From: Catenuloplanes niger
GTDB taxonomy: Bacteria > Actinomycetota > Actinomycetes > Mycobacteriales > Micromonosporaceae
DNA length: 64,000 nucleotides
Assembly (NCBI RefSeq): GCF_031458255.1
Contig: NZ_JAVDYC010000001.1
Coordinates: 8,914,501-8,978,500 of the forward strand
Reading direction: 5' to 3'
A program made the position numbers and the translations under genes. The notes beneath the pieces are model-generated. The model ran no database searches and was not told where the DNA came from. It saw only the letters and a program-made list of their open reading frames with translations. Below, piece after piece: positions 30,101-62,618 of the stretch. The number at the start of each line of letters is the position of its first letter. Positions within the stretch are counted from its first letter, which is position 1.

Positions 30101-30212
30101 AGGCGAACATCAACATCACGTCACGCATCAGCGGGTCCCGGCGGCGCAGGTACTGCCACGACACCCACGCCAGGATCACCGCGAACACCGACGTCACCAG
30201 GATCAACGCCAT
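27150..30212 (-). CDS. Hybrid sensor histidine kinase (7TM-GAF-PAS-PAS-HisKA-HATPase-REC)
   Basis: This 1020-aa kinase starts with about seven membrane helices (residues 1-195). It continues with a GAF-like domain (about 220-350), two PAS domains (about 360-475 and 480-595), and a HisKA box with His636 in GGVAHDFNN. The HATPase core is N-x-x-x-N (NLAVNARDAM), GTGTGM and GSGTGLGLATVYG. A C-terminal receiver has phospho-acceptor Asp940 (LLTDVIMPKMTG). The H-D-F-N-N type box marks the PAS-rich, FixL/hybrid kinase class. It can autophosphorylate and pass phosphate to its own receiver. A phosphotransfer partner is not apparent nearby. The ligand is unknown. Confidence 0.93.
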   Translation of the reverse strand: MALILVTSVFAVILAWVSWQYLRRRDPLMRDVMLMFASVAMLFVLGAVRLLTGPLPQPVTMLAVALLMAKPLFTLRLVSWLCPVPAWWWYAAVLAWLVSVAPAVASSAGPLPRPQLWPALVVFFVLETVATWLLGTQARRRGGAARARLWCATAGTGLFGVAVLLSAGGRETWLQSRVLAVVSGLLYLVAFAPPRWLRRIWARGAAYAVTDLLLDAPTAEPAARTWRRYCEGAVRVLGTDAVVVLMPGAGEMVRVAGCAGTLVDLVCTRRGLDELLDVGATIDALAGWAHPPAVAVRFAQATGTRYVTVAPVPGADGRGAVLLLNRYRSLFAEDDVAAFTIPARHAAALAERAQTLAEREQLAVIVESSHDAIIGKSLDGVITSWNAGAARLYGYSAGEAVGRHASMLFPPGQEAVEAQFMARIARGERVDQQRVTRRRRDGAVITAVLTMSPITDADGRVTGVASVSRDISERQRAEAMFEEVLEAAPDAMIGVTDEGTITLVNAQAERLFGYQRDELVGQSVDILVPERHRGGHHHHRDRYFAHPRSRPMGAGAALAAVRKDGSEFPAEISLSSVTTDQGMIVTTAIRDVTDRLIAQAERERLITQAERDAAEKRLQHTRRLESLGQLAGGVAHDFNNILAVISNYSTMIAEVIGSPDPAPEDMAAARVDLGQISRAAERATRLTKQLLAFGRRDITQAEVINLNHVIGDVEQMLRRAIGEHIHLMTTLHRDLWPVYADPGQVEQILVNLAVNARDAMPGGGTLSIDTSNAEIGDADLTSSPLPVGRYVRVRISDTGTGMPPEVIERAFEPFYTTKPKGSGTGLGLATVYGIATAAGGDVHLYSENGIGTTVTVVLPAVDARRPEPGSPADATVIAEPAAAEAPHETILMVEDEDDLRVITGRILTRAGYHVLSASGGEQALHLAQTHPDRIDLLLTDVIMPKMTGNEVAARVRAIRPGIPVLYMSGYAEPVLTGNGTLPDGVTIVEKPFTSQELLNRVRAFVHPPGTRTPQEAHHTG

Positions 30213-46615: not shown

Positions 46616-46706
46616 GTGCCGTGCCTACCGCATCGCGCGGGCCGCAGCCAGCGAATTCGGCACACCAGCCGCTCCGCCGGCGTTGCGATGGCGGTCGCGG
46701 TGACCG

Positions 46707-46740
46707 GCCGGCCACGCCGGACGAGTCCGGCGTGGCCGGC
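46707..46740 (-). terminator. Strong hairpin ending the PTM operon
   Basis: GCCGGCCACGCCGGA (46707-46721) pairs perfectly with TCCGGCGTGGCCGGC (46726-46740): a 15-bp stem with a CGAG loop, 5 bp beyond the reductase stop codon. It is the strongest hairpin I found in the window and separates the PTM operon from the downstream cupin operon. Confidence 0.75.
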
Positions 46741-46745
46741 GGCGG

Positions 46746-47801
46746 TCAGATCTCCACCAGGACCTTGCCGCGGTTGCCGGAGCGGTCCACGTAGAGGCTC
46801 TGGTACGCGGCCGGGATCTCGTCGAACCCGCGGTAGACGGTCTGCCGGTAGCTGAGCTCGCCGCGCCGGATCATGCCGCCGAGCTCGTCGCGCATCGCCG
46901 TGAGGTTCTCCTCGGTGAACCACTCGTGGGCGAAGATCCCGCGGATCGTGGTGCGCGGCTGCATGATGTGCGGCAGCAGGCGCGGGCCGGTGTAGTCCCG
47001 GTTGACCTGGGTGGCCCACTGCCAGCAGACCGCGACCTGGCTGTGCACCGTGAGCATGCCGAAGACCACGTCGGTGATCGTGCCGCCCAGGTTGTCGAAG
47101 TACCGGTCGACGCCGTCCGGCGCGGCCTTGACCAGCGCCTCGCGCACCTGCTGCGGGTCGTCGCCGAGCCGGTACGGGACGACGGCGTCGAAGCCGAGCT
47201 CGGTCAGGAACGCGGTCTTGTCCGGTGACGACGTCGTGCCGACCACCCGCGCGCCGGCCCGCTTCGCGAGCTGGCCCACCAGCGTGCCGACCGCACCCGA
47301 CGCACCGCTGATCACCAGCGTGTCGCCCGGCCGGATCGTCATGAAGTGCGTCAGCGTGCCCCAGGCGGTGATGCCCGGCCCGCCCATGATGCCGAGCGCG
47401 GTCGACACCGGCAGGACGTCGTCGTAGTGGTCCGGGTTCAGCAGCCGGTACGCCGGGAACACCATCGGGAACGACTCGCCCTGCCACAGCACCTCGCTGC
47501 CGGTCCCGATGACGTGGCTGCGCCAGCCGCCGTACCCCTGGACGAGGTCGCCGACCTGGAAGGCGGCGTCCGGCCCGGCCTCGAGCACCTCCATGATCGA
47601 GTCGGCGACCATGTGTGTGCCGACCGGGGTCTCCAGGGCGAGCCCGTGCAGGTACGGGTCGACCGACACGTACCGGGTCCGGAACAGCATCTCGTCGTCC
47701 CGGAGCGCGACCGGCACGTCCTCGGTGACCTTCTCGTAGATCTTCTCGGCGTCCGGCAGCCCGTCGAGGTGCGCGCGGACGACCCATTTGTCGATCTTCA
47801 T
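46746..47801 (-). CDS. ftdE: Medium-chain NADP-dependent reductase (PTM ring-closing type)
   Basis: A 351-aa zinc-free medium-chain reductase of the prostaglandin-reductase/LTB4-dehydrogenase type. The cofactor loop is SGASGAVGTLVGQLAK (about 168-183), and GTTSSPDK follows as in NADP-binding members. YVSVDPYLHGL opens the catalytic half. In PTM clusters (IkaC, FtdE, PtmC, Ox4) this family closes the last ring after the FAD enzymes. In ikarugamycin it makes the inner five-membered ring. Here it follows the FAD oxidoreductase by 1 bp and is the last gene of the operon. Its specific ring chemistry is inferred from context. Confidence 0.88.
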   Translation of the reverse strand: MKIDKWVVRAHLDGLPDAEKIYEKVTEDVPVALRDDEMLFRTRYVSVDPYLHGLALETPVGTHMVADSIMEVLEAGPDAAFQVGDLVQGYGGWRSHVIGTGSEVLWQGESFPMVFPAYRLLNPDHYDDVLPVSTALGIMGGPGITAWGTLTHFMTIRPGDTLVISGASGAVGTLVGQLAKRAGARVVGTTSSPDKTAFLTELGFDAVVPYRLGDDPQQVREALVKAAPDGVDRYFDNLGGTITDVVFGMLTVHSQVAVCWQWATQVNRDYTGPRLLPHIMQPRTTIRGIFAHEWFTEENLTAMRDELGGMIRRGELSYRQTVYRGFDEIPAAYQSLYVDRSGNRGKVLVEI

Positions 47802-47802
47802 G

Positions 47803-49536
47803 TCAGGCTCCTTGCCGGGTGAGGGCGGTCGGCCGTGCGCCGGCCGGGCGGTCCGGTGCGGGCACGGGTATCACGATCTGGGTGGGCTCGGGGGCGGTCT
47901 CGTCGATGCCGGCCGTGAACGGCCGGCCGTCGTCCCGGCAGATGAACTGGACGACGTGCCGCCCGCTGGCGGCGGCCCGGATCAGGCCGCCGATGGTGGT
48001 CCACACGCCGGAGAGGTAGAAGTTCGACAGGCCGGGCAGCACCGGGCCGTTGCGCTCCAGTTCCTGCTCCATGGTCTCGCCGCCGTCGACGAACGGCAGC
48101 CAGCCGGCGATCGACCCGTCGTAGTTGGCGGTGTAGCGGATCTGGGTCAGCGGCGTGGAGACGTCGTAGGTCACGATGGAGTCGGCGAACCCGGGGAAGC
48201 GCGCGTCCAGCAGCCGGATCAGGGTGTCCCGGATCTGGCGCTTGGCCGTGTAGTAGGCCCGGCCGCGGCGTACCCGCAGGGTGTGCAGTTCCTCGCCCTT
48301 GCGGACGCGGCTGGCCTGTTCCGGTCCGTCGGCCAGCTCCCGCCAGGTGGCGGTGTCGGAGAAGTACGTCACGAAGACGACGGACGTCTGCTCCGGCGAG
48401 TGCTCGGGATAGTGCCGGCTGCGGAACTGCACGTTGATGCCCGGGTGCGCGCCCATCCCGACCAGGCCGGCGGACTCCTCCTCGGTCAGCAGGTGCGTGG
48501 TGCACGGGTCCTCGTCCGGGAACGGCCGGTTGAGGGCGAAGAAGGCGCTGACGTACCCGGGGTAGGTCTGACCCGGCTCGTTGATCGTCTCCTCGTACAG
48601 CCGCCGGTAGGTCTCGTTGAGGTAGCGGCCCTTCAGCATCCGGGTGACCGCGGTGTGCCCGTCGCAGGCGGCGACCACGATGTCCGCGTGGTACTCGCGC
48701 CCGTCGCTGAGCCGGACCCCCGTCGCGCGGTCGTCCTCGACCAGGATCTCCTCCACCTTCGCGTTGTACGTGATCTCGCCGCCGAGCCGCTGGTAACGAC
48801 GCTCGATCGACCGGGCCAGCTCCAGGGACCCGCCCTCGGGCACCCCGGCGGTCTGCCCGGCGTGCGCGCCGAGCTGGAAGTAGAACGGCAGCAGCGGGAA
48901 GGCGGGGTGCCGTTCGTACAGGATGAAGTTGAACGCCTCGCGCAGCAGCGGGTCCTTGAACCGCGCCGAGTAGTCGGTCATCAGCGTGGTGAGGGACTTG
49001 CGCACGGTGTTCCAGTACGGGAGGAAGACCGCCAGCATCCGCCAGCGTTCCAGCCGGCCCATCAGGCCCGGGGGCTTCAGGAACGGGTACGCGTTGAGCA
49101 GCTTCTTGAACGTGCGCACCCCGGAGCAGAACTCGCGGATCAGTCGCGCGTCCGCGGGGGAGTGCTCCAGCAGGTGCGCCTCCAGCCGGTCCGGGTCGGA
49201 GTAGAAGTAGACGGTCCGGCCGTCCCGGCCGCGTACGTTGTTGAACGTCTCGAAGGTGCGCATCTGCTTGCCCTGCAACGCGCCGAGCTCGAGCCAGATC
49301 TGGTACATGTCGTTGCCCGGCCCGCTGCCGAGCAGCCAGCTCACGCACCAGTCGAACGTGAACCTGCCCTGGTCCCAGGAGGTGCAGCAGCCGCCGGGCA
49401 GTTCGTGCATCTCCAGGATCTGCGTGCGGTACCCGTTCATCCGCGCGTAGCAGCCGGTGGCGAGGCCGGCGAGACCACCACCGATGATGATCATCGTTTC
49501 CCGCTGGGAAACCCGTTCTGACATGTGCGTCGACAT
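47803..49536 (-). CDS. Phytoene-desaturase-like FAD oxidoreductase (PTM cyclase type)
   Basis: A 577-aa FAD protein. The Rossmann motif GGGLAGLATGCYARMNG lies near residue 20, then LEMHELPGGCCTSW (GG-motif) and, late, ATRTxxGLIRAAASG-like ends (VWTTIGGLIRAAASG). This is the CrtI/phytoene-dehydrogenase superfamily. In PTM clusters such enzymes (IkaB, FtdC/D, PtmB) reductively cyclise the polyene. A single copy here, instead of two as in most PTM clusters, matches ikarugamycin-type loci. ATG 49536 touches the GAGGGG site; ATG 49524 is a plausible alternative start. It follows the PKS-NRPS by 23 bp. Confidence 0.9.
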   Translation of the reverse strand: MSTHMSERVSQRETMIIIGGGLAGLATGCYARMNGYRTQILEMHELPGGCCTSWDQGRFTFDWCVSWLLGSGPGNDMYQIWLELGALQGKQMRTFETFNNVRGRDGRTVYFYSDPDRLEAHLLEHSPADARLIREFCSGVRTFKKLLNAYPFLKPPGLMGRLERWRMLAVFLPYWNTVRKSLTTLMTDYSARFKDPLLREAFNFILYERHPAFPLLPFYFQLGAHAGQTAGVPEGGSLELARSIERRYQRLGGEITYNAKVEEILVEDDRATGVRLSDGREYHADIVVAACDGHTAVTRMLKGRYLNETYRRLYEETINEPGQTYPGYVSAFFALNRPFPDEDPCTTHLLTEEESAGLVGMGAHPGINVQFRSRHYPEHSPEQTSVVFVTYFSDTATWRELADGPEQASRVRKGEELHTLRVRRGRAYYTAKRQIRDTLIRLLDARFPGFADSIVTYDVSTPLTQIRYTANYDGSIAGWLPFVDGGETMEQELERNGPVLPGLSNFYLSGVWTTIGGLIRAAASGRHVVQFICRDDGRPFTAGIDETAPEPTQIVIPVPAPDRPAGARPTALTRQGA

Positions 49537-49559
49537 CCCCTCGATGTGTGAGCCGGTGG

Positions 49560-52500
49560 TCAGCTGGGGTCGCCCAGGACCTGGCGGATCAGGGCGGCGT
49601 TGCGGACGGCGTGCTCCTGGTCGAGCATCTCGGCGTGCGTGCCGGAACCGGCCAACAGCTCGTCCCGGTGGGCCGACGCGCCGGTCCAGCTCCCGCGCTC
49701 GCCGGCCGCGTAGAACGCGGTCTTGTCCTGATCACTGAGGACCGTCACGGTCGCCCGGACCGTGCCGGTGTTCGGCGTCCGGCTGCAGAACTCGATGTAG
49801 TCCCGGGCCTGCTCCCGGGTCTCCCGGGCGACGATCTCCGACCCGGTGTGCCGGAACAGGTGCTCGGCCAGCTCCCGCTCGAACGCCGCGAACTCGTCCG
49901 GCCCGAACTCGAACGTCTCCGCGATCCGGTACGAGTCGACGACGATCACGTGGCGCACGGTCCGGCCGCGGCCCTCCAGCTCCTTCGCCACCTCGAAGGC
50001 CAGGTTCCCGCCGAGGGAGTAGCCGAGGAGCAGGCAGGGCCCCGCGGGCTGGAGCCGCTCGACCAGGTCCGCGTAGCGGGCGACCTTGTCGTCCCCGGCC
50101 AGGTAGTTCAGCCCGACCGTCCGCCACCGCGGCAGCTGCGCCGCGAACTGGCGGTACACCAGCCCGTGCCCGCCGGCCGGCGGGAAGCAGAACAGGGTCG
50201 CCCCGCCGTCGGGGTTGAACGTCAGGTAGGGCTGCCCGCCGCTGAGCCGGCCGGTGACGATCTGCTCGACCGTGCCGGCCATGCCGCGCAGCGTGGTGAT
50301 CCGGAACAGCCGGCTCACCTGGATGTCGATGTTGAACTCCTGCCGGAGCCGGTAGATCAGCTCGACGAGCTTGATCGACGTACCGCCGGCCTCGAAGAAG
50401 TCCAGCCGCAGATCCGGTTCGCAGCCGAGCAGCGCGCGCCAGTGCTCGGCCGTCCGGACCTCGTACAGCGTGACCGGCGGTTCCGGTTCGCCGGCGCCGG
50501 CCTCCGGCCGCGGTGCCGGCAGCGCGGCGGCGTCGACCTTGCCGTTCGACGTCAGCGGCAACGCGTCCAGCGCCACCAGGTACGCCGGGATCATGAAGGT
50601 CGGCAGCCGGTCGGCGAGCCAGCGGCGCAGCTCCCGACCGTCGGGCGGGCTCTCGCCGGCCGGCACCCAGTAGGCGGCGAGCGCGGGCTCACCGGTGGCG
50701 TCCGGCCGGACCACGACCACCGCGTCCGCGACCTCCGGCCGGCTCAGCAGGTGTGACTCCACCTCGCCGGTCTCGATCCGGTGCCCGCGCACCTTGACCT
50801 GGTTGTCGGCCCGGCCCAGCAGGTGCAGCACGCCGTCGGCGTCCCACCGGCCGAGGTCACCGGTGCGGTAGAGCCGCAGCGCGGCCGCGTCCGGGCGGCG
50901 GCTCAGCGTCCGGGTGACGAACCGCCGCGCGGTCTGCTCCTCGTCGCCCGGATAGCCGGCGGCCACCCCGTCCCCGCCGACCCACACCTCACCGGGTACG
51001 CCGGGCGGGACCGGCTCGCCGTGCCGGTCGAGCAGATAGACCGCGCTGTTCGGGAACGGCCGGCCGATCGGCACCATCCGGCCGGGTTCCAGCCCGTCCG
51101 CCGGGCCCTCGAAGTACGTGGTGTCGATGGTGGCCTCGGTCAGCCCGTACGAGTTGACCACCCGGGTGCCGGGACCGCAGACCGCGCGCAGCCGCTCGTA
51201 CTCCTCCACCTTCCACACGTCCGAGCCGACCACCAGCAGGCGCATGAAGTCCAGCCGCTGCTCGTCCCGTTCGCAGTGGGCGAGCAGGCCGCGGACGATC
51301 GCGGGCACGAACTCGCCGCAGTCCACCCGCTCCTCGGTCATCGTGCGGTACAGCCGGCCGGTGTCGAGCAGCAGGTTGCGGTCCGCGAGCACGAGCGTGC
51401 CGCCGGAGCAGAGCGCGCGGGTCAGGTCGCCGGTGAAGACGTCGAACGCGACGCCGGCCATCTGCAGGTGCACCCGGACGTCGGAGTCCAGGCCGTACTC
51501 GGTGCGCCAGCCCGCGTACACGGCGGCCAGGTTGCCGTGGGTGACCCGGACCGGCTTCGGCACGCCGGTCGACCCGGAGGTGTAGACCACGTAGGCCGGG
51601 TCGTCGCGCGTCACCCGCACGTCGAGCTCGGCCGTGGGCTCCCGGTCCGCCTCCGCCAGCAGCGCCGCCACGTCGCGTACGTCGCCGGACGCGGCCGACA
51701 GGCGGGCCAGTCCGGTGTCGTCGGCGAGCACCAGCGCCGCACCGGCGTTGCCCACCAGGTACGCGAGGCGCTCCGGCGGGTATCCCGGGTCCAGCGGCAG
51801 GTAGGCGCCGCCGGCCCGGAGCACCGCGAGGATCGACGTGACCAGGTCCGCGGACTTCTCCTGGCACAGCGCGACCACGGTGCCGTTGCCCACCCCGAGC
51901 CGCCGCAGCCGGTGTGCGAGCGCGCGGGACCGGCGTTCCAGCGCGGCATAGGTCAGCCGGTGCGCCGGCCCGGACCCGGCCGGTGACACGACCGCGTCGG
52001 TGCCGGGCCGCGCCGCGGCGGCCGCGACGATCAGCTCGTGCACCGGTGGGCCGTACTCGGCGTGCCGGTCCGCGCCGCTCCACGCGGTGAGCAGCCGCTC
52101 GCGCTCGTCGTCGGCGAGCAGTTCCAGCCGGGCGACCGGGGTGTCCGCGGCTGCCGTGGTCAGCGAGTCCAGCAGCCGCACGTAGTGCCCGGACAGCCGC
52201 CGGACCGTCTCCGGCAGGAACAGGTCGGTGTTGTACTTGAACACGCAGTGGAAGCGCTGGTCGGCCTCCTCCTCGTACACCGACAGGGTCAGGTCGAACT
52301 GGCCCTCCTCCTCCGGCAGTTCGATGTACTCCAGCCGATAGCCGTACTTCTCCGTCGCCACCTTGTGCGTGAGCAGGATGAACATCGCCTGGAAGACCGC
52401 CGACCGGCTCGGGTCGTGCTGCAGGCCGAGCTGCTCCACCAGCAGCACGAACGGGTACTCCTGGTTGTCGAGTCCGTTGAGGACGGTCTCGCGCACCTGG

Positions 52501-55500
52501 GCGAGCAGCTCGCCGACGGCCGGGTCACCGGCCAGGTTCGCCCGCAGCGGCAGCGGGTTGACGAAGTAGCCGTAGACCGACCCGAACTCCTCCTGGGTAC
52601 GACCGGTCACCGGGCTGCCCACGATGACGTCGTCCTGCCCGCTGTAGCGGTGCAGCAGCACGTAGTAGGCGGAGAGCAGCACCATGAACGGGGTGACGTG
52701 GTGCTCCCGGGCCGTGGCGTGCACCCGCGCGCTGAGCTCCGCGTCGAGCGTGAAGAACTCGGACGCGCCGTTGTGGGTCTGCACCGCGGGCCGCGGATGG
52801 TCCGTGGTCAGCTGGAGCGCCGGGATTTCGGCCGGCAGGTGCGCCGTCCAGTAGTCCAGCGAGCGCTTCGCCTGCGGACTCGCCAAGAACCGGTTCTGCC
52901 AGTTGAGGAAGTCGAGGTACGACGACGCCACCGGCGGCAGCGACACGGTCTCGCCGCGCCGCAGCCCCTCGTAGACGGCGAGCAGCTCCTCGATGAACGT
53001 GAACGTGGAGATGGCGTCCGAGACGATGTGGTGGACGGCCTTCATGATGATCCAGCGGTCCTCGCCGCGCCGGAACAGCCGGAACCGCAGCAGCGGATCG
53101 TGCTCCAGGTCGTACGGGCGGCGGTACTCCCGGATGATCGCCTGGTAGACGTCGTCCCACTCCGCGCCGCGGACGTCGAACAGCGCCACGTCGGCCCGGG
53201 GCTCCGCGGAGATGCGCTGGACCGGCCGGCCCTGCTCCATCAGGAAGTTCGCCCGCAGGCTCGGGTGCCGGGCGATCAGCACCCGCACCGCCTCGAACAT
53301 GAGGTCCGGCTCGATCGCGACGCGGACCTCGACCGCACCGCCGATGTTGTAGGCGAAGCCGTCCGGGTCCAGCTGCTTGAGGAACCACAGCGCGTTCTGG
53401 TTCTGGGTGAGCGGATACCGCGCCTCGTCCGCGTGGACCGTCACGTCCGCGGCGGTGACGTCGCCGGCGTCCAGCGCGTCGAGCAGGCCCTCGTGCACCT
53501 GCCCGATCAGGTCGGTGACCGAGACGCCGCTGAGCAGCGCGACCACCGGCAGGGTGACGTGCAGCTCGGCGGAGATCCGGGCGCGCAGCTCCATGGCCAG
53601 CAGCGAGTCGAGGCCGAGCGCGGTGACGCCGGCCGACGGGTCCACCGTCTCGGCGGGCGTGCGGAGCACGTCGGCGACGACCGCGACGAACCGCTCGCTC
53701 AGCAGCCGGTGCCGCTCGTCCTCGCCCGCGTCCCGGAACTCCTCCAGGAAGCTGCTGTGCGTGGTGTCCGCCGGCTGCGCGGCCGCGGCGGCCAGCTCGG
53801 CCACCAGCGCGGGCGGCCGGTCGTACCAGGAGAGGAAGGCCGGCCAGTTGACCACGGTCGCCACCATCAGCTGCGGGTGGCGCTCGCCGGCGACCCGTTC
53901 CAGCACCGCCATGCCGGCGGCCGGGGACAGCGAACTCATGCCGCGGTTGTTCCGGTAGTGGTCGACCAGGCCCAGCTCCTCGATCATGCCGGTGGCCCAC
54001 GGCCCCCAGTCCAGGCTCAGCGCCGGCCGGCCGGTGGCCCGCCGGTGGTGGGCGAGGGCGTCCAGGAACGCGTTGCCGGCGGCGTAGTTCGCCTGCCCGG
54101 CCGTGGTCAGCAGCGAGGCGATCGACGCGAACAGCACGAAGTGGTCCAGCGGCTCGTCGCCCAGGTGCCGGTGCAGCAGGTAGGCGCCGGTCACCTTCGG
54201 GTCGTACGCGGCGTCGAACGTCTCCCGGTCCATCTGCGCAACGCGGGTGTCCCGGACCTGGCCGGCGAGGTGGAACACGCCCCGGATCGGCGCGGACCGC
54301 AGCCGCCGGTACTCGTCCAGCCAGCCGGTCAGCGCGCGCTCGTCGGTGACGTCCACCCGGGCCACGAGCGGCTGGCAGCCGAGCGTCTCCAGCTCGGTCA
54401 GGAACGCGATCCGGTCCCGGGTCGCGGCGTCCCAGCCGGGTTCGTCCCACCGCTCACGGGGCGGCACCGGCGTGCGCCCGGCGAGGACGAGCCGTCGCGC
54501 GCCGCGGCGCACCAGGGTCCGGCACAGCAGCCGGCCGAGCGCGCCGAACGCGCCGGTGACCAGGTAGGCGCCGTCCGGCCGCAGCCGCAGCGGCAACGGG
54601 CGGTGCAGCTCCGCCGCGGGCCGCAGCCGGCAGGTGAACCGGTCACCGCCGCGCAGCGCGACCTCGTCCTCGTCGTCGTGGGTCAGCTCCCGCCACAGCG
54701 CCACGGCCTCCGCCCGGCGGTCCGGGTCCGGCACGCCGAGATCCACGATCTTGCCGCGGTGGCCGGGCAGTTCCTGGTCCCGCAGCACGCGGGCGACACC
54801 CCAGGCGGGCGCGGCCGCCGGCTGCGGGACGCCGGCCCCGTCCACCGGCTGGCTGTTGCGGGTCACGACGTGCAGCCGCTCGCCGGTCTCCCGGCCGGAC
54901 AGTGCCCGGGCGAGCGCGATCAGGGAGTAGGCGCCGAGCGTGCCGCAGCCGGGCAGGTCCGGGGCGGTCAGGTCGCCGAAGTCCGGCAGGTCGAGGTTCC
55001 ACAGGTGCAGCACGTGATCGGCCGGGCCGCCGCTCTCGGCGAGCACGCGGCGCAGGTCGTCGGCGGAGTCCGGCCGTACCGTCGAGCGTCCCGCGGCCGC
55101 GTCGACGTGCGGCGCGGTGCCGGGCCGGACCAGGTGGCACCGTCCGCCGTGCGCGGTGACCAGGGCGGCGAACTCCTCCGCCAGGCCGGTGCCGTCGGCC
55201 AGGATCAGCCATCGCGCCCCGGCCGGCGTCGCGTCCGCCGCCGGTGCGGGCAGCGGCGGGAGCGGCACCCACGCCGGTGCGGCCAGCCAGCCGTCGATCG
55301 TGGCGACGCTGACCGCGGCCGACGCCTTCTCCACGTCGGCGGCCCGGAACGCGCGGACCGTGCCCACCGGTGTGCCGTCCGTGGCGTACACCGCCAGGTC
55401 GCCGACGAGCTCGTCCGCGGTCCGCCGGGTGACCGTGGCGTGCACCCACAGCTCCCGGTCGCCGAACGCGTCGAGGGAGACCTCCCCGATGGACAGCGGC

Positions 55501-58500
55501 AGCCGGATGCCGCGCCGGCCGTCGTCCCCGGCCGGCTCCAGCAGTTGCGGGGTGAGCAGCGTCTGGAAGGCGGCGTCGAGCAGCGCCGGGTGGGCGTGGA
55601 GCGCGGTGGCGTCGCCGCCCAGCGCGGCCGGCGGCCGGAGCCGGGCCAGTGCCTCGTCCGGCCCGATCCACACCTCGGCGATGGCCTGGAACGCCGGGCC
55701 GTACCCGTATCCCTGCGCGGCGAGCCCGGTGTAGCACTCCGCGGACGTCAGGTGCAGCGCGGTGCGGTCGCGGATCGCCGCCACGTCCAGCGGCGGCGTG
55801 TCCCCGCGCGGCCGGCCCGCGGTCAGCGCCCCGGTCGCGTGCACGGCGGGCTCGGCGGCGTCCGCGGTCAGCGAGGCCACCGTGAACACGCCGTCCTCCG
55901 CGGCGACCGCGGTCTGCACGGTCCGGGTGTCGCCGCCGGTGAGGAACAGCGCCTTGCGCAGCTCGACGCCGGTCAACGTGACCCCGGCCCCGCCGGTGAC
56001 CGCGCGGGCCGCCTGCGCCGCCATCTCGAGGTAGCCGGCGGCGGGGAAGACGACGTTGTCCTGGATCCGGTGATCGTCGAGGTAGGGTGCGGCCTCGGTG
56101 TCCAGTTTCGCCTCCCAGACCGGGCCCGCGGTGGCCAGCCGCCGCCCCAGCAGCGGGTGGTCGCGCCGGCCGAGCCGGATCTGGGCCACCGGTGCCGGCT
56201 CCACCCAGAAGCGGTCGGTCCGGAACGGGTACGGCGGAAGCGGCACCGTGGACCCGGCCGGCTGCAGCACGTCCCAGGCGATCGGGAAACCCTCGGTGAA
56301 CAGCGCCGCGAGCGACATGATCATCCGCTCCGGCTCGTTCTCGGCGCGCCGGATCGACGGCAGCGTCCGGCCCGTCACGTCGCGGTCGGCCAGGCACTCC
56401 TGGATCGAGTGGCCCAGCACCGGGTGCGGGCCGATCTCCAGGAAGAGCCGGTAGCCGTCGCCGATCAGCCGGTCGGCCGCGGCACCGAACCGGACGGTGT
56501 CCCGCACGTTGCGCCACCAGTACCCGGCGTCGAGCTCCGGCCCGTCCGCCACGCCGTCCGTCGCGGTCAGGTAGAGCGGCACCCGGGCCTGCCTCGGGGC
56601 CAGCCCGGCGAGCGAGGTCAGCAGTTCGTCCTTGATCGCCTGCATCCGCGCGCTGTGGTACGGCACCCGCACCGCGAGGAACTTCGCGAACGTCTGCTCG
56701 GCCGCCAGCCGCCCGGCGAGGTCGGTGAGCGCGTCCTCGTCACCGGCGAGCGTGACGGCGCCGGGGCTGTTCACCGCGGCCACCGAGATCGCGTCGCCGT
56801 AGGGCTGCACCCGTTGCCGCGCCTCGGGTTCGGTCAGGCCGACCGCGAGCATGGTGCCGGTGCCGACCAGCTTCTGCTGGAGCCGGCTGCGGTGGACGAC
56901 CACGCGCACCGCGTCCTCCAGCGTGTACACGCCGGCCTCGTAGAACGCCGCCACCTCGCCGGTGCTGTGCCCGACGATCGCGTCCGGCCGGATGCCGTAG
57001 CTGCGCCACAGCGCGGCGAGACCGATCTGGACCGCGAAGTTGGCCGGCTGGGCCAGCCAGGTCTCCGCCATGTGCGAGTCGACCTCGTCCGCGTTCAGCT
57101 CGTCGACCAGCGACCAGCCGGTGAGCCGGCGGAACACCCAGTCGCATCGTTCGACCGTGGCCCGGTAGACCGGCTCGGTCTCGAACAGCTGCCGGCCCAT
57201 CGCCCACCACTGCGGGCCCATGCCGGTGAACACCCACACCAGGCGCCGGTCCGCCGCGTCGCGGCGCTGGCCGGTCAGCACCCGGGGGTGTGGCTCGCCG
57301 CGCCCGTAGGCGGCCAGCGCCTCGTCCAGCGACTCGCGCGAGGAGTAGACGACCGACAGCCGGGAGTCGTGGTGCTGCCGCCGGTGCGCCAGCGTGTGCC
57401 CGAGGTCGGCCAGCGCGACACCACCCGCGTCGCCGCCGGTCAGTTCCGCGTGGACGCCGGCGGCCAGCCGCGGCAGCACGGCCGGATCGCGGGCGGTCAG
57501 CGGCAGCATCGTGTGACCCGGCACGGCGGACACCGCGGCCGGCCCGGTCACGGGCGGCGCCTCCTCCAGCAGCACGTGCGCGTTGGTGCCGCCGAACCCG
57601 AACGAGTTCACCCCGGCCCGTGCCGGCCCGGTGTGCGCCGGCCAGGGCGTCGGCTCGGTGGGGATCTCGAACGACAGCGACGCCTCGTCGATCGCGGGAT
57701 TGATCCGCTCCAGGTTGATGTGCGGCGGGATGATCCGGTGCTTGAGCGCCAGCGCGGTCTTGATCAGGCCGGCGACGCCCGCGGCCGACTCGGTGTGCCC
57801 GATGTTCGTCTTGACCGAGCCCACGTAGCAGCGCTCGCCCGGGGCGCGGCCGATGGCCAGCGCGCGGCTGAGCGCGTTCGCCTCGATCGGGTCACCCACC
57901 GGCGTGGAGGTGCCGTGCGCCTCGATGTACTGCAGGCTGCCGGGCGACACGCCGGCCTCGGCGCAGACCCGCTCGATCAGCGACGTCTGGGCGTCCGCGT
58001 TCGGGACCGTGATGCCGTTCGTGCGGCCGTCCTGGTTGACACCGCTGCCGGCGATCACGGCGTAGACCGGGTCGCCGTCGCGCACCGCGTCGGACAGCCG
58101 TTTCAGCACGACGACCCCGACCCCCTCCGCGCGTACGTAGCCGTTCGCGGACGCGTCGAACGTGCGCGACCGGCCCTCCGGCGACAGGAAACCGCCCTTG
58201 GTCTCGGCGATCGTGTACTGCGGGGTCAGGTGCAGCAGCGTGCCGCCGGCCAGCGCGACCCGGCTCTCCCCGCGCAGCAGGCTCTGCCGGGCCAGGTGCA
58301 CGGCGACCAGCGACGAGCTGCACGCGGTGTCGATCGACAGGCTCGGCCCGCGGAAGTCGAAGCAGTAGGAGATGCGGTTGGAGACCATCGTCATCATGGT
58401 TCCGGTCGCGGTGTGCGCGGCCAGGGTCTCGAAGCTCAGGTCGGCGAACTGCAGGATCTTGTAGTCCAGCGTGAACGCGCCGACGAACACGCCGACGTCC

Positions 58501-58871
58501 GTGCCGGCGAGGTCACCCGGGATCTGCCCGCCGTCCTCCAGCGCCTCCCAGGCGACCTCCAGCAGCTTGCGTTGCTGCGGATCCATGTGCTCGGCCTCGC
58601 GTGGGCTGATGCCGAAGAAGGCCGGGTCGAACTCGGCCACGCCGTCGATGTAACCGCCCCGGCCGCCGATCAGCCGGCCCGGCTTGGCCTTGTCCCGGCT
58701 GCCGAGCGTGCGTACGTCGTACCGGTCCGCGGGTGTGTCGGTGATGCAGTCCTTGCCGTCGAGCAGGTTGCGCCAGAACGACCGGTGGTCGGAGGCGCCG
58801 CCCGGCAGCCGGCAGCCGATGCCGACGATGGCGATCTTCTCCGGGGAGGTGGCGTCGAGGGAGTGCCTCAT
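49560..58871 (-). CDS. ftdB: Iterative type I PKS-NRPS hybrid (polycyclic tetramate macrolactam synthase)
   Basis: This 3103-aa one-module enzyme reads KS (12-435; Cys184, His319, His359), AT (545-840; Ser636 in GHSTGEV), DH (900-1180; His934, Asp1099), KR (1430-1690; TGAFGALG, Tyr1596), ACP (1720-1800; Ser1756 in LGLDSL), and C (1815-2250; HHIVSDA at 1947-1953). A follows (2280-2780; YTSGSTGVPKPV, Lys2778), then PCP (2800-2870; Ser2832) and TE (2890-3103; GYSLGG Ser2952, His3079). There is no ER, so it builds polyenes. The order and length match IkaA/FtdB/HSAF synthases, which iterate to make two polyenes and join both to ornithine. The A-domain code reads D-V-G-E-L-V-S-I-D-K, close to the known ornithine code. 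The TE region forms the tetramate and macrolactam. Confidence 0.95.
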   Translation of the reverse strand: MRHSLDATSPEKIAIVGIGCRLPGGASDHRSFWRNLLDGKDCITDTPADRYDVRTLGSRDKAKPGRLIGGRGGYIDGVAEFDPAFFGISPREAEHMDPQQRKLLEVAWEALEDGGQIPGDLAGTDVGVFVGAFTLDYKILQFADLSFETLAAHTATGTMMTMVSNRISYCFDFRGPSLSIDTACSSSLVAVHLARQSLLRGESRVALAGGTLLHLTPQYTIAETKGGFLSPEGRSRTFDASANGYVRAEGVGVVVLKRLSDAVRDGDPVYAVIAGSGVNQDGRTNGITVPNADAQTSLIERVCAEAGVSPGSLQYIEAHGTSTPVGDPIEANALSRALAIGRAPGERCYVGSVKTNIGHTESAAGVAGLIKTALALKHRIIPPHINLERINPAIDEASLSFEIPTEPTPWPAHTGPARAGVNSFGFGGTNAHVLLEEAPPVTGPAAVSAVPGHTMLPLTARDPAVLPRLAAGVHAELTGGDAGGVALADLGHTLAHRRQHHDSRLSVVYSSRESLDEALAAYGRGEPHPRVLTGQRRDAADRRLVWVFTGMGPQWWAMGRQLFETEPVYRATVERCDWVFRRLTGWSLVDELNADEVDSHMAETWLAQPANFAVQIGLAALWRSYGIRPDAIVGHSTGEVAAFYEAGVYTLEDAVRVVVHRSRLQQKLVGTGTMLAVGLTEPEARQRVQPYGDAISVAAVNSPGAVTLAGDEDALTDLAGRLAAEQTFAKFLAVRVPYHSARMQAIKDELLTSLAGLAPRQARVPLYLTATDGVADGPELDAGYWWRNVRDTVRFGAAADRLIGDGYRLFLEIGPHPVLGHSIQECLADRDVTGRTLPSIRRAENEPERMIMSLAALFTEGFPIAWDVLQPAGSTVPLPPYPFRTDRFWVEPAPVAQIRLGRRDHPLLGRRLATAGPVWEAKLDTEAAPYLDDHRIQDNVVFPAAGYLEMAAQAARAVTGGAGVTLTGVELRKALFLTGGDTRTVQTAVAAEDGVFTVASLTADAAEPAVHATGALTAGRPRGDTPPLDVAAIRDRTALHLTSAECYTGLAAQGYGYGPAFQAIAEVWIGPDEALARLRPPAALGGDATALHAHPALLDAAFQTLLTPQLLEPAGDDGRRGIRLPLSIGEVSLDAFGDRELWVHATVTRRTADELVGDLAVYATDGTPVGTVRAFRAADVEKASAAVSVATIDGWLAAPAWVPLPPLPAPAADATPAGARWLILADGTGLAEEFAALVTAHGGRCHLVRPGTAPHVDAAAGRSTVRPDSADDLRRVLAESGGPADHVLHLWNLDLPDFGDLTAPDLPGCGTLGAYSLIALARALSGRETGERLHVVTRNSQPVDGAGVPQPAAAPAWGVARVLRDQELPGHRGKIVDLGVPDPDRRAEAVALWRELTHDDEDEVALRGGDRFTCRLRPAAELHRPLPLRLRPDGAYLVTGAFGALGRLLCRTLVRRGARRLVLAGRTPVPPRERWDEPGWDAATRDRIAFLTELETLGCQPLVARVDVTDERALTGWLDEYRRLRSAPIRGVFHLAGQVRDTRVAQMDRETFDAAYDPKVTGAYLLHRHLGDEPLDHFVLFASIASLLTTAGQANYAAGNAFLDALAHHRRATGRPALSLDWGPWATGMIEELGLVDHYRNNRGMSSLSPAAGMAVLERVAGERHPQLMVATVVNWPAFLSWYDRPPALVAELAAAAAQPADTTHSSFLEEFRDAGEDERHRLLSERFVAVVADVLRTPAETVDPSAGVTALGLDSLLAMELRARISAELHVTLPVVALLSGVSVTDLIGQVHEGLLDALDAGDVTAADVTVHADEARYPLTQNQNALWFLKQLDPDGFAYNIGGAVEVRVAIEPDLMFEAVRVLIARHPSLRANFLMEQGRPVQRISAEPRADVALFDVRGAEWDDVYQAIIREYRRPYDLEHDPLLRFRLFRRGEDRWIIMKAVHHIVSDAISTFTFIEELLAVYEGLRRGETVSLPPVASSYLDFLNWQNRFLASPQAKRSLDYWTAHLPAEIPALQLTTDHPRPAVQTHNGASEFFTLDAELSARVHATAREHHVTPFMVLLSAYYVLLHRYSGQDDVIVGSPVTGRTQEEFGSVYGYFVNPLPLRANLAGDPAVGELLAQVRETVLNGLDNQEYPFVLLVEQLGLQHDPSRSAVFQAMFILLTHKVATEKYGYRLEYIELPEEEGQFDLTLSVYEEEADQRFHCVFKYNTDLFLPETVRRLSGHYVRLLDSLTTAAADTPVARLELLADDERERLLTAWSGADRHAEYGPPVHELIVAAAAARPGTDAVVSPAGSGPAHRLTYAALERRSRALAHRLRRLGVGNGTVVALCQEKSADLVTSILAVLRAGGAYLPLDPGYPPERLAYLVGNAGAALVLADDTGLARLSAASGDVRDVAALLAEADREPTAELDVRVTRDDPAYVVYTSGSTGVPKPVRVTHGNLAAVYAGWRTEYGLDSDVRVHLQMAGVAFDVFTGDLTRALCSGGTLVLADRNLLLDTGRLYRTMTEERVDCGEFVPAIVRGLLAHCERDEQRLDFMRLLVVGSDVWKVEEYERLRAVCGPGTRVVNSYGLTEATIDTTYFEGPADGLEPGRMVPIGRPFPNSAVYLLDRHGEPVPPGVPGEVWVGGDGVAAGYPGDEEQTARRFVTRTLSRRPDAAALRLYRTGDLGRWDADGVLHLLGRADNQVKVRGHRIETGEVESHLLSRPEVADAVVVVRPDATGEPALAAYWVPAGESPPDGRELRRWLADRLPTFMIPAYLVALDALPLTSNGKVDAAALPAPRPEAGAGEPEPPVTLYEVRTAEHWRALLGCEPDLRLDFFEAGGTSIKLVELIYRLRQEFNIDIQVSRLFRITTLRGMAGTVEQIVTGRLSGGQPYLTFNPDGGATLFCFPPAGGHGLVYRQFAAQLPRWRTVGLNYLAGDDKVARYADLVERLQPAGPCLLLGYSLGGNLAFEVAKELEGRGRTVRHVIVVDSYRIAETFEFGPDEFAAFERELAEHLFRHTGSEIVARETREQARDYIEFCSRTPNTGTVRATVTVLSDQDKTAFYAAGERGSWTGASAHRDELLAGSGTHAEMLDQEHAVRNAALIRQVLGDPS

Positions 58872-58909
58872 TGCTCAGTCCTTGGGGGTCGGTGGGATCG
58901 ACGGATGGC

Positions 58910-59815
58910 TCAGTAGCGGCGGTCGCCGCGGAGGGGGTGCAGCAGCGTCGCGCCGACCGCGCCGACCGGTGGGAACGACGCCGGGTCGGTCACCCCGATG
59001 GCCGCCGGCCGGCGGCCCGGCCGCCAGGTGAAACTGCCGAAGAGCTGGTCCCAGACGGACAGGTCGGAGCCGAAGTTGCCGGCCTCCGCGAGGTCCGTGC
59101 TGTGGTGCAGCCGGTGCTGTTCCGGGCTGGCCAGGACGTGGTTCAGCCAGCCGATCCGCACGTCGATGTTGGCGTGGGTGAAGTAGCCCTGCACGACCAC
59201 GAACAGGCCGACCAGGAAGACGGACGGCTCGGAGAACCCGGCGAACGCGAGCGTCAGCTGCACCGCGCCCTGGGCCAGCACGATGTCGAAGATGTGCGAG
59301 ACACCGTTGTTGCCGACGTTGACCTTGTCGGGCAGGTGGTGGACGCCGTGCAGCTTCCACAGCCAGCTGTTGGTGTGGCCGAGGCGGTGCATCACGTAGC
59401 TGCCCAGGGAGCCGGCGAGCAGGGCGAGCGGGATCTCGGCGGCCGGTGGCAGCGCCGGCTCGGCGGTCGCCAGCGCCGCCACCAGCCACGACACCGCGAG
59501 CTGCGCGATGCCGCCGCCGAGCAGCGTGAGCAGGAAGTAGGTCCCGTACCAGCGCCACTCCCGCCGGCTCGGATGCCAGGCCGGGTCGTACGGGATCAGG
59601 CGTTCGAGGATCGCGAAGTAGGCCAGCGTGCCGAGCAGGAACGCGAAGTTCGCGACGCCGAGGTCCCAGCCGAGCCGCGGGCCGGCCAGGCCGACGACGG
59701 CCATGGCGACCAGGAGCGCCGGGTAGGACAGCACCCGCAGGCCCGCGCGGACCACGGCGGCGGGCGTCGACGTCGACGTCGACGGTACGGGAGTGTGTTG
59801 GGCTGAGATGTCCAT
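58910..59815 (-). CDS. ftdA: Sterol desaturase/fatty-acid hydroxylase family (PTM hydroxylase)
   Basis: A 301-aa membrane di-iron protein with about six hydrophobic helices. It has three histidine boxes: HRLGH (143-147), HGVHH (156-160) and HRLHH (234-238). In HSAF and frontalamide clusters the homologous enzyme (SD, FtdA) hydroxylates the ornithine-derived carbon (C-3). Ikarugamycin clusters lack it. GGAGG lies 6 bp upstream of ATG 59815. It opens the operon, 38 bp ahead of the PKS-NRPS. The hydroxylation site in this molecule is inferred. Confidence 0.9.
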   Translation of the reverse strand: MDISAQHTPVPSTSTSTPAAVVRAGLRVLSYPALLVAMAVVGLAGPRLGWDLGVANFAFLLGTLAYFAILERLIPYDPAWHPSRREWRWYGTYFLLTLLGGGIAQLAVSWLVAALATAEPALPPAAEIPLALLAGSLGSYVMHRLGHTNSWLWKLHGVHHLPDKVNVGNNGVSHIFDIVLAQGAVQLTLAFAGFSEPSVFLVGLFVVVQGYFTHANIDVRIGWLNHVLASPEQHRLHHSTDLAEAGNFGSDLSVWDQLFGSFTWRPGRRPAAIGVTDPASFPPVGAVGATLLHPLRGDRRY

Positions 59816-60879
59816 ATCGCCTCCATTGCGAAATGAATGCCGGATGGCGCCATGAACCGTCCGCCGATCGGAGCGGAAGGCACTCAGGAACGGGTTGTGG
59901 TGACACCGCGGATAAGTCGTCGTCCCGATTGTTCTCGTAGTCCGCTTTCTTATCGACGAGAGCGAGGGGCGCCGCCGATGCCATTTCGGGTGAGCCTGCC
60001 CGTGTGCAGGCGACGCTACTTAACGGAGTGGCGCGAACACGTTGCACAGTCAACCGGAGGTGCCATGGAGATCGGAATATCCCGCGACGGGGAATCTAGG
60101 TCAGGAAGCTGACAGGTGATTCGCCGATTGATTCACATCATGTTGTTGCGCTTTTCTTCCGGGTCGGGTATCGGCCACGTGGATGTGCGAATGCGGATTT
60201 CGAACCGCGAGGAAATCCCACGCGGGCGTGGCCCGGATTGCAATGCGGTTTCCGGGGTCTTGCCGCCGGGTTGCGGTCGCGCGGAATGGCGAGAACTTGA
60301 ATTGGTGGCCAATTTGAGTGAATGAATAATTCGGTGTGACAATTTGAGAGGTGATCGGTGTGCGCGGCACTGCCGGCGGGCCCGCGTGCGACCTTCCGCC
60401 CGGAGCGCCGGCCGGCGACGCGGCCGGCCCCGGCACGTGGCCACCCACCTGCGCCGCTCCGACCGCCGTCCCGACCCGGCGGGCGGGGCGTCCCGGCATG
60501 CCGCGCCCACCGGGACGTCCCGCTGGGCGCGCCGGCGGCACCGCGGGGCTTCGCGACGTGCCGGCCCCGCCGTCCGGTGCCCGGCTCCGCCGCGACGGGC
60601 GCGGCACGCCGATCCCCGCCACCGCCCGGCGACCCCACGAGAGCCACGCCTACGCGGGATGATCGTCGGCCGCTACTTCTACGGCACCGCCGACATCGTC
60701 AGGTCCGGGTCCGGCTCGTCCGGCGGTGCTCGGCGCGGCGTTGATCCAGGGCCGGACGGCGCACAGCCCGCGCGATGCGATGCGCCGGACACGGCCACGT
60801 CGGAGTGTTTCTCCAGGTCAGGGTCGCACTGATCGAGACAGCGTCGCGCCCGGCCGGCCGGATGCGGCCTGTGCCGCGG
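59816..60879. other. 1.06-kb intergenic region with AT-rich island, PTM upstream DNA
   Basis: No gene can be assigned with confidence. The first 250 bp lead into the PTM operon and carry an AGTCAA (60048-60053), a TTGACT -35-like box when read toward ftdA. From about 60110 to 60350 the DNA turns strikingly AT-rich, with the repeats noted at 60296-60348. From 60360 to 60870 it is GC-rich again; its open frames (about 60344-60832) read as arginine/proline noise. I count it as the control region of the PTM operon plus an unexplained spacer. Confidence 0.5.
60296..60348. promoter_or_regulatory. AT-rich repeat cluster upstream of the PTM operon
   Basis: CTTGAATTGG (60296-60305) and CCAATTTGAG (60309-60318) form an imperfect inverted repeat (8 of 10) around TGG, with a perfect AATTGG/CCAATT core. 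The right half-site, CAATTTGAG, recurs at 60340-60348. Its start is exactly 30 bp from the first copy (60310), about three helical turns, on the same strand. The sites lie about 480-530 bp upstream of ftdA. A binding protein is not known. Confidence 0.45.
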
Positions 60880-61656
60880 CTATGTCGACAGCCGCTCACG
60901 AAGCCGGAGCATGATCCGGGACAGCAGGCGGGACACCTGCATCTGTGAGAGGCCGACGTCCGCGGCGATCCGGTGCTGCGGCAGTTCGGCCACGAAACGC
61001 AGGATGACGATCCGCCGTTCGCGCGCGGTCAGCTCGGCCAGGCAGGTGCGCAGCGCATCCCGGGTGGCGATGCCCTCGATGTCCGGATCCGCGGCGCCGA
61101 GCATCTCCCGCAGCGGCACCCGCCGGTCGTCCATGAGCTGGTCCAAGGAGCCGACCCACTGCACGCTGGCCTCGCGGCAGGCGGTGCGGGCGCGCTCGAC
61201 GTCGACACCGAGCGCGGCCGCCAGTTCACCGAGATCGAGCGTGCGCTGTTCCCGCTGCGCCAGCCGTTCACCGGCGGACGTCAGCCGCGCCCACAGCTCC
61301 TGCGATCCGCGCGGGATGCGAATGCGGCACACGCTGTCCCGGAAGTGCCGCTTGAGCGCACCGGTGATGGCCGGCGTCGCATAGCCGGCGAACGGCACAC
61401 CCAGCCCGGGGTCGAAACGGTCCACCGACAGGATCAGGGCTACGGCGGCGACCTGGCGAAGATCGTCGAGCGGCTCGCCGCGTCCTGCATAGCGGGCGGC
61501 GAGTCGGTTCGCCAACGGCAGCCAGTCCTCGATCACCCGTGCCCGCAGCAGGACGTGGAGGCTGTCGCCGGCTGGTAGCGCGGCAAGCCGGCGTAACCTG
61601 TCCGCGCGGGACTCCGCGGCACCGGGCGAGACCGGGGTACGTGTCGGACCAGCCAT
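60880..61656 (-). CDS. SigB/SigF-type alternative sigma factor
   Basis: A 258-aa sigma factor starting at ATG 61656 after a GGAGGT site. Region 2 reads ENWLPLANRLAARYAGRGEPLDDLRQVAAVALILSVDRF-like sequence (core D-x-x-Q-V/A), with PFAGYATPAITGALKRHFRD as in SigB/SigF. Region 3 has LGVDVERARTACREA, and region 4 is LTARERRIVILRFVAELPQHRIAADVGLSQMQVSRLL, with a clean HTH. Region 1.1 is absent. Such factors drive general stress or developmental genes and are normally held by an anti-sigma factor, which is not encoded here. Partner stress genes (tandem Usp) lie just upstream. Confidence 0.9.
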   Translation of the reverse strand: MAGPTRTPVSPGAAESRADRLRRLAALPAGDSLHVLLRARVIEDWLPLANRLAARYAGRGEPLDDLRQVAAVALILSVDRFDPGLGVPFAGYATPAITGALKRHFRDSVCRIRIPRGSQELWARLTSAGERLAQREQRTLDLGELAAALGVDVERARTACREASVQWVGSLDQLMDDRRVPLREMLGAADPDIEGIATRDALRTCLAELTARERRIVILRFVAELPQHRIAADVGLSQMQVSRLLSRIMLRLRERLST

Positions 61657-61719
61657 GATGCACCTCCGGGCGAGGCGGCGAGCTGTCGCCCTCTGGTTAC
61701 GGTGATTGCCGCCGGCGCG

Positions 61720-61739
61720 CCAGGGCCGATCGGCCCTGG
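61720..61739 (-). terminator. 20-bp palindrome between the Usp and sigma genes
   Basis: CCAGGGCC-GATC-GGCCCTGG (61720-61739) is fully palindromic, with partial extension into flanking GC. It lies about 40 bp past the Usp stop codon and upstream of the sigma-factor start, so it probably ends the Usp transcript. Confidence 0.55.
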
Positions 61740-61778
61740 CCCGCGCGTGCACCGAGGGAGGCGCCGTCCGCGCACGCC

Positions 61779-62618
61779 TCAGGGTCTGGAGATCAGGACG
61801 GGGCAGTCCGCATGGTGGATCAGCTGCAGCGCCACCGTGCCGAGGAGTGTCGCGGGGGTGCGCCCGGTACCGTGGTGGCCGACCACCACCAGCGTGGCGG
61901 TGTGTGACAGTTCCACCAGCATCCGCGCCGCGCCTTCCTGGACGGCGGCGGCCTGCACCGGCGTGTGTGGGTACCTGCGCCGCCACGGGGCCAGCGTCTC
62001 GGCCAGCGCGGCCTCCTCCGCCTCGGCCAGCCGCCGCAGGTCGGGCACCGGCGGGGACCCGGCCGAGCTGTGGGCGCGCACCGCCAGCAGCGTCGCACCT
62101 CGCGCCGCCGCCTCGGCGAAGGCCAGGCCCACCGCCTGTTCGCCACCGGGGGAGCCGTCCGTGCCGACGACGACCGGCCCGGCGCCGGGGTCGGCGTCGG
62201 ACCGTCCGCGGACGATCACCACCGGCCGGTCCGCGTGTGCCGCCACCCGCTGGCCCACCGAGCCGAGCAGCAGGCTGGCGAACCCGCCACGGCCGCGGTT
62301 GCCGACCACGACCAGCCGAGCGGACGAACGGCCCAGCAGCGCCGGGACCGTCTCCCCGACCACCACCTCGGCGCACACCGGCAGGCCGGGAGCGGTCTCC
62401 CGCGCGGCACGCTCCGCCTCGGCGGCGATCCGTCTGGCGTGCGCGTCCACTCCCTCCCGGTACTCGACCGCGCCGGCGAAGCGGTCGGCCAGCCAGCCGA
62501 AGTCGTAGGCGTGCACGACACGCAGGTGCACGTCGTCCCGGCGCGCCTGGCGTGCCGCCCACCGGACGGCGGCCCGGCCGTGCGTGGAGCCGTCCGTGCC
62601 CACCACGATCTCATCCAT
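61779..62618 (-). CDS. Tandem-domain universal stress protein
   Basis: A 279-aa protein made of two Usp domains. The first (1-145) starts IVVGTDGSTHGRAAVRWAARQA and ends VVVGNRGRGGFASLLLGSVGQRVAAHADRPVVIV. The second (150-279) starts VVVGTDGSPGGEQAVGLAFAEA and ends VVVGHHGTGRTPATLLGTVALQL and CPVLIS. Both contain the G-x2-G-x9-G-(S/T) ATP-binding motif. GGAGGT lies 8 bp before ATG 62618. It may be part of the stress regulon of the nearby sigma factor. Confidence 0.93.
   Translation of the reverse strand: MDEIVVGTDGSTHGRAAVRWAARQARRDDVHLRVVHAYDFGWLADRFAGAVEYREGVDAHARRIAAEAERAARETAPGLPVCAEVVVGETVPALLGRSSARLVVVGNRGRGGFASLLLGSVGQRVAAHADRPVVIVRGRSDADPGAGPVVVGTDGSPGGEQAVGLAFAEAAARGATLLAVRAHSSAGSPPVPDLRRLAEAEEAALAETLAPWRRRYPHTPVQAAAVQEGAARMLVELSHTATLVVVGHHGTGRTPATLLGTVALQLIHHADCPVLISRP

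Follow-up and report, generated by a model that had tools for sequence, protein, structure and literature searches.

The stretch of DNA analysed here (the window; 64,000 nucleotides of Catenuloplanes niger, contig NZ_JAVDYC010000001.1) carries a compact four-gene operon which, by its gene content and domain order, is a polycyclic tetramate macrolactam (PTM) operon. It would probably direct the synthesis of a 3-hydroxylated macrolactam with a 5-6-5 ring system, butremycin (hydroxylated ikarugamycin) or a close congener being the most probable product. We infer the ring pattern, the position of the hydroxyl group and the final product from the gene content, domains, adenylation code, protein families and clade placement detailed below. 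The four open reading frames (ORFs) lie on the minus strand, in the following order, with spacers of 38, 23 and 1 bp:

58910-59815, minus strand: hydroxylase (SD), gene 1 of the operon (translation; Pfam PF04116)
49560-58871, minus strand: predicted iterative polyketide synthase-nonribosomal peptide synthetase (PKS-NRPS), 3103 aa (Pfam domains; active-site motifs)
47803-49536, minus strand: single FAD-dependent cyclase (PDH), DH1/IkaB type, 577 aa (translation; trees)
46746-47801, minus strand: NADPH-dependent medium-chain reductase/cyclase (ADH), IkaC type, 351 aa (translation; trees; L54, E57, A291, L300)

A preliminary description of this DNA had listed the same genes, order, strand and gaps, which are confirmed by the ORFs and Pfam families; PTM family membership, which it also claimed, agrees with the domain order, the DH1-family cyclase and the hydroxylase family. 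Loci are designated below by L, genomes by G and genera by g (as in g23), followed by a number.

The synthase comprises the following domains:

57708-58841, minus strand: ketosynthase (KS), residues 11-388, PF00109/PF02801
56298-57239, minus strand: acyltransferase (AT), residues 545-858, PF00698
55323-56159, minus strand: dehydratase (DH), residues 905-1183, PF21089/PF14765
53994-54572, minus strand: ketoreductase (KR), residues 1434-1626, PF08659
53502-53693, minus strand: acyl carrier protein (ACP), residues 1727-1790, PF00550
52089-53423, minus strand: condensation (C), residues 1817-2261, PF00668, with the motif HHIVSDA
50538-52022, minus strand: adenylation (A), residues 2284-2778, PF00501/PF13193, code DVGELVSIDK
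50262-50474, minus strand, approximate bounds: peptidyl carrier protein (PCP), PF00550 (reported as two stretches), GGTSIKL at residue 2829
49827-50198, minus strand: C-terminal thioesterase-type domain (TE), residues 2892-3015, PF00975, with the motif LGYSLGGN

This Pfam order, KS-AT-DH-KR-ACP-C-A-PCP-TE, is the one-module architecture of PTM synthases, for which iterative use is predicted. Read from motifs, the last K being assigned by rule, the adenylation code is found in 43 of the 76 PTM synthases compared (the window counted, 8 of the 76 codes not extracted), more than any other code, and presumably resembles known ornithine codes. In the proposed mechanism, the iterative PKS would supply two polyene chains for the NRPS half to join to ornithine and release as a tetramate polyene. 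Formation of the outer rings would fall to the single FAD enzyme, and closure of the inner five-membered ring, a Michael-type reductive cyclisation, to the NADPH reductase, IkaB and IkaC having been assigned roles in PMC11724479; the di-iron-type hydroxylase would add a hydroxyl group to C-3, the ornithine-derived carbon.

The cyclase and reductase are, on the evidence of the trees, of the one-PDH (ikarugamycin/capsimycin, 5-6-5) type. DH1 together with an oxidoreductase is reported to give the 5-6-5 ring system (PMC5705629), and the window operon holds a DH1-family cyclase and an oxidoreductase with no DH2. The cyclase matches the Pfam amine-oxidase/NAD_binding_8 families, its best NCBIfam match, crtI_fam, being below the cut-off; the reductase matches ADH_N_2 and ADH_zinc_N, with an AlphaFold model of pLDDT 87. 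In a quick cyclase tree of 86 rows, 20 loci were labelled one-PDH at that stage and 19 of them form one clade (SH-aLRT 95); the careful tree, with 44 rows, unites 18 one-PDH cyclases, including the window's, in one clade (98/93). Similarly, 18 of 19 one-PDH reductases, the window's among them, form one clade with PDB 9jp8 (99/96). When both proteins are concatenated (under LG+G4, a simpler model), the 18 one-PDH rows again form one clade (100/99), which appears in all 200 bootstrap trees counted. Placing the five pairs of the window's family with any of three tested two-PDH sets was rejected on the concatenated data (p 1.8e-6, 5.0e-7 and 1.6e-5). When the cyclase is cut into thirds, a branch in each of the three trees separates the one-PDH rows from all others (75/77, 93/84 and 88/90, none starred). 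The one-PDH clade includes the loci of Streptomyces zhaozhouensis, S. harbinensis and S. avicenniae; a different strain assigned to S. zhaozhouensis has yielded ikarugamycin (PMC4306928), and the PTM cluster of S. avicenniae NRRL B-24776 has been drawn next to that of S. xiamenensis (PMC5241641). These phylogenies are those which the preliminary description had called for, with 5-5 type cyclases as the contrasting group, and both enzymes fall on the one-PDH side and not with two-PDH enzymes. Together with the precedent of PtmD, which catalyzes C-3 hydroxylation of ikarugamycin to butremycin (PMC11724479), this placement supports the hydroxylated 5-6-5 product it had predicted, a product still deduced from the genes.

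Regarding row selection, L083 (a distant relative) and L080 (a broken frame) were dropped before tree building. The careful cyclase trees omit the cyclase of L074, a locus which the quick tree, the residue comparison for the cyclase and the synthase trees include. L061 was counted in the quick cyclase and reductase trees, where it costs a second change, and left out of the careful cyclase tree, the concatenated tree, the trees of thirds, the residue comparison and the last count of the careful reductase tree. This locus (L061:8204-11233, Kitasatospora aureofaciens CPD02) lies on a short contig with one PDH, an ADH of the two-PDH type and an opposite-strand P450 upstream; no synthase is in view. 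Its enzymes group with those of two-PDH Kitasatospora despite the single PDH, and it represents a broken contig or a decayed cluster.

Three points weigh against the 5-6-5 assignment. First, the ikarugamycin end of the trees is anchored by species and strain names rather than by verified IkaB/IkaC sequences. Second, the mean raw identity of the cyclase is 71% to the 14 one-PDH enzymes outside its family and 68% to two-PDH enzymes; percent identity fails to separate the two cyclase types and was dropped as a classifier, so that the case for the ring type rests on the trees. Third, an approximately unbiased (AU) test keeping the other 13 one-PDH cyclases apart from the five of the window's family was not rejected (p 0.24), a test which cannot distinguish a sister position from exclusion and to which the tests on concatenated proteins were therefore added. 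It is quite improbable, in our estimate, that the single FAD enzyme acts like DH1 of two-PDH clusters and yields a monocyclic, 5-5, 5-5-6-like or new ring pattern: raw identity to two-PDH cyclases does reach 70.8% (among 20 listed), and in their trees the window's PKS and hydroxylase stand apart from those of ikarugamycin type, but the cyclase, reductase and concatenated trees all lead to the one-PDH clade, the three two-PDH placements are rejected, and the window's reductase has the one-PDH residue at all four positions which separate the types.

These positions emerged when 18 one-PDH reductases were compared with 41 from two-PDH loci. At position 54, L occurs in 18/18 one-PDH sequences and I in 39/41 two-PDH ones; position 57 is E in 17/18 versus D in 40/41, position 291 is A in 18/18 versus S in 34/41, and position 300 is L in 18/18 versus W in 39/41. 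Seven further loci were kept out of the discovery and used as a check: the one-PDH L160 has L/E/A/L, five two-PDH loci have I/D/S/W, and the two-PDH L159 has L/D/S/W. The two-PDH L044 has I/E/A/W, which makes position 300 the more telling one. In the cyclase, a single position, 393, separates the types (S in 18 of 19 one-PDH sequences, with one gap, versus C in 52 of 59 two-PDH ones; L059, at a contig start, and L061 were also dropped from this count). The four reductase residues mark the clade and may reflect descent only. Solved structures are at hand for both reductase types: 9jp8 is 99% identical to the ADH of L016 (Kitasatospora purpeofusca), and 9ji7 is 97% identical to that of Lysobacter sp. 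yr284 and groups with Lysobacter enzymes in the reductase tree, their type assignment resting on these identities since the PDB titles give neither organism nor pathway. The literature search turned up no paper that names 9jp8, 9ji7, 9jj4 or 9jlk.

The hydroxylase, which matches PF04116 (FA_hydroxylase, E 6.1e-27), is by its family a PTM C-3 hydroxylase (sterol-desaturase/fatty-acid-hydroxylase type, FtdA/SD/PtmD-like). Its ten metal-motif histidines are invariant in 47/47 aligned rows (the window and two duplicate loci counted), and its gene sits upstream of the PKS-NRPS, as expected for PTM C-3 hydroxylases. Stand-alone homologues were observed in the S. harbinensis and S. avicenniae genomes (L166:9211-10038 and L167:16721-17461, both on the minus strand), with 62% and 67% identity to the window's enzyme over the aligned part. 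No PTM synthase, PDH or ADH was seen beside them in the 18-19 kb read (L167 ends ~260 bases past the ORF). The one-PDH clusters of both species have no adjacent hydroxylase, and these homologues might act in trans on ikarugamycin-type products. In Lysobacter sp. yr284 (L072), a second hydroxylase copy (L125) lies away from the PTM cluster.

A scan of named genomes returned 77 loci, 76 of them close, among which 13 combine one PDH with an ADH (L009, L011, L012, L013, L014, L016, L017, L031, L043, L050, L053, L058 and L082). The hydroxylase adjoins the synthase in five of these (L009, L011, L014, L016 and L017), all of which also carry a cytochrome P450. One cyclase plus the hydroxylase, regarded by the preliminary description as a distinguishing set, is thus present in the window but not unique to it. 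Only distant hydroxylase relatives (28-31% identity) occur in the genomes of six of the 13 loci, and L043 and L058 are accompanied by an unlinked hydroxylase homologue. In L074, a contig end truncates the locus and no ADH is in view.

Within the window's own family, a close cyclase (E <= 1e-150) was found in five of the 354 genomes searched, from 44 genera. All five loci (the window, G111, G169, G318 and G322) have hydroxylase, synthase, one PDH and ADH in identical order, with a cyclase-reductase spacing of 1 bp and, in three of them, a TTG start. G169, from g23, a large genus of this family, is probably a Micromonospora. Among window ORFs starting beyond 38000, relatives were found only within the four genes (against 38 kb of the same-genus relative G111 and 27 kb each of G169, G318 and G322). 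That four other genomes of the family preserve this gene set and its order, with relatives confined to it, argues against a chance arrangement. The order sample (8/397) and class sample (8/394), which overlap and count the host's own genome, gave 12 further places for examination (L154, L156, L158 and L165 being on the same contigs as L038, L034, L056 and L058). No hydroxylase with a one-PDH pair lacking P450 was seen in these 12 (L164 starts at a contig end, where a hydroxylase could be missed), the only one-PDH loci among them being L165, without hydroxylase, and L160, with P450. In L149, the cyclase homologue of genome G1033 is reported with one in-frame TAG.

By heme motif, the sole means of P450 detection in this survey, no P450 was seen near any of the five family operons in the stretches read; in the window, neither the operon nor its near flanks hold the motif, and Pfam detected no P450 among ten flanking ORFs. 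Only in the window's family was the hydroxylase and one-PDH set observed without a P450 motif. The nearest heme-motif ORF of the window lies ~38 kb from the operon:

6873-8177: cytochrome P450, best NCBIfam match pentalenolactone synthase, below cut-off

A P450 encoded elsewhere in the genome, such as this one, could act in trans, which counts against butremycin as the end product, and the 3-hydroxylated 5-6-5 core would then be oxidised further to a clifednamide B- or capsimycin-like compound. Eight of the 13 named one-PDH loci have a same-strand operon P450 and L043, a ninth, has one on the opposite strand just beyond the operon. We nevertheless judge this outcome unlikely, the only heme motif in the stretches around the five family operons being that of the window's distant ORF, at most a candidate PTM enzyme.

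Butremycin production also presupposes that the operon is used. The regions bordering it are:

59816-60300, minus strand: intergenic region 5' of the hydroxylase gene, presumed promoter region, with short blocks conserved in a same-genus relative
46701-46748, minus strand: GC-rich hairpin overlapping the reductase stop codon (-45.3 kcal/mol, z -5.75, 0/200 shuffles as stable)

The hairpin is the probable operon end; it has no T-run and is absent from the terminator scan, which requires one. A plausible ribosome-binding sequence precedes each of the four genes, and none of them contains a TTA codon. No sigma-70 promoter consensus was found in 59816-60300, many PTM clusters have been described as silent, and ikarugamycin stayed the main product when PtmD was added (PMC11724479), all of which would suit a silent operon or an inefficient hydroxylase, giving nothing or mainly ikarugamycin. 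This, too, has a low probability in our view: the four frames are open, all motifs checked are present, and the retention of the operon in five genomes, amid surroundings unlike the window's, argues for use.

The host genome is a single contig of 9.74 Mb. Its xylose isomerase scores highest against PDB entries of the 1xim group (693 bits, other groups reaching at most 656), and 1xim comes from Actinoplanes missouriensis, in keeping with a place in the Micromonosporaceae. Upstream of the operon, the flank also holds a wax-ester-synthase-like gene; downstream lie a short BKACE-like ORF and sensor kinases. Flanking features with their coordinates are:

60880-62562, upstream side: SigB/F/G-type sigma factor ORF with sigma domains in the last 220 residues, residues 1-330 being possibly a spurious extension
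41581-44277, 30330-32504 and 27150-30212, downstream side: sensor histidine kinases
33824-35005, downstream side: response-regulator-like ORF

The history of the PKS differs, according to its trees, from that of the cyclase pair. Synthase trees (LG+G4) were limited to the C-terminal 1650 residues, flanks being cut, and the rows were reduced from 66 in the quick tree to 35 in the careful one. One-PDH synthases as a single clade were rejected (0% of 200 bootstrap trees, p-AU 1e-7, 15 versus 20 rows): they occupy four places, one of them beside two-PDH L010/L015 (100/100), starred branches forcing at least two. Grouping the five synthases of the window's family with L009, L011, L013 and L074, chosen as cyclase-tree neighbours, was likewise rejected (p 4e-92). 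Their association with three two-PDH rows, with SH-aLRT 99 in the 66-row tree, is unsupported in the 35-row tree. The hydroxylase history, judged by its own tree, also differs from that of the cyclase pair, one-PDH hydroxylases falling into three groups (the tree needs three changes, of which starred branches force at least two).

On the simplest reading, the cyclase-reductase pair would have been transferred jointly from operon to operon as an exchanged cassette. Against an exchange stand a borderline AU test placing L009-type cyclases with two-PDH L010 (p 0.04, whole protein), sliding identity which shows no sharp breakpoint for a switch, and the first third of the L011 cyclase, whose raw identity is 83% to two-PDH L010, 82% to L007 and 77% to the window's, arguing against a simple whole-gene swap. 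Convergent selection on the cyclase-reductase pair may have operated instead. In the corresponding tests on cyclase thirds, L009-type sequences with two-PDH L010 and L015 gave p 0.29, 0.15 and 0.07, none significant. A wider scenario, plausible to us though falling short of probable, is that the 5-6-5 pair had a single origin and was then passed as a cassette among PTM operons whose synthases and hydroxylases differ, thereby changing the ring system; that reductase residues 54/57/291/300 (L/E/A/L versus I/D/S/W) mark, and perhaps decide, a five- versus six-membered inner ring; and that the window operon is among the pathways recombined in this way and is the native route to butremycin in the Micromonospora family. 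With a ring-forming pair and a synthase which differ in history and four candidate reductase residues, the control of the PTM ring pattern becomes testable.

Butremycin, the predicted product of the window operon, has been obtained from a Micromonospora (PMC3944527). Its producer Micromonospora sp. K310 probably shares its genus with G169, which has the same operon. The operon represents a concrete candidate for the butremycin gene cluster. Neither the gene cluster of strain K310 or another native butremycin cluster, nor a description of a P450-less hydroxylase and 5-6-5 pair in the window's family, was found among the open-access papers searched, most subscription papers on PTMs lying outside that set.

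Compared with known systems, the ikaABC clusters of the S. xiamenensis group and Streptomyces sp. Tu6239 share with the window the PKS-NRPS, one FAD cyclase and one reductase. Unlike the window operon, ika clusters have no adjacent hydroxylase (PMC5705629), which is likewise the case for L043, L050, L053, L058 and L082; the synthases of the ikarugamycin-side loci L043, L050, L053 and L058 also occupy another place in the PKS tree than the window's. The putatively clifednamide-type operons of K. purpeofusca (L016) and its relatives share the hydroxylase and one-PDH pair, the two ADHs being 72% identical, and carry a P450 gene as well, placed between the PKS and PDH genes or following the ADH gene; none was seen in the operons of the window's family. 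Finally, the frontalamide, heat-stable antifungal factor (HSAF) and pactamide clusters (FtdA-F, SD-OX1-4, ptm) have the hydroxylase first, the same synthase architecture and a homologous reductase; in contrast to the window, they hold at least two PDHs, their reductase has the other set of residues, and their products are 5-5-6 (PMC5705629, PMC8399814). The kind of pathway is already known, and it is the proposed cyclase-reductase exchange and the four reductase positions that are new here.

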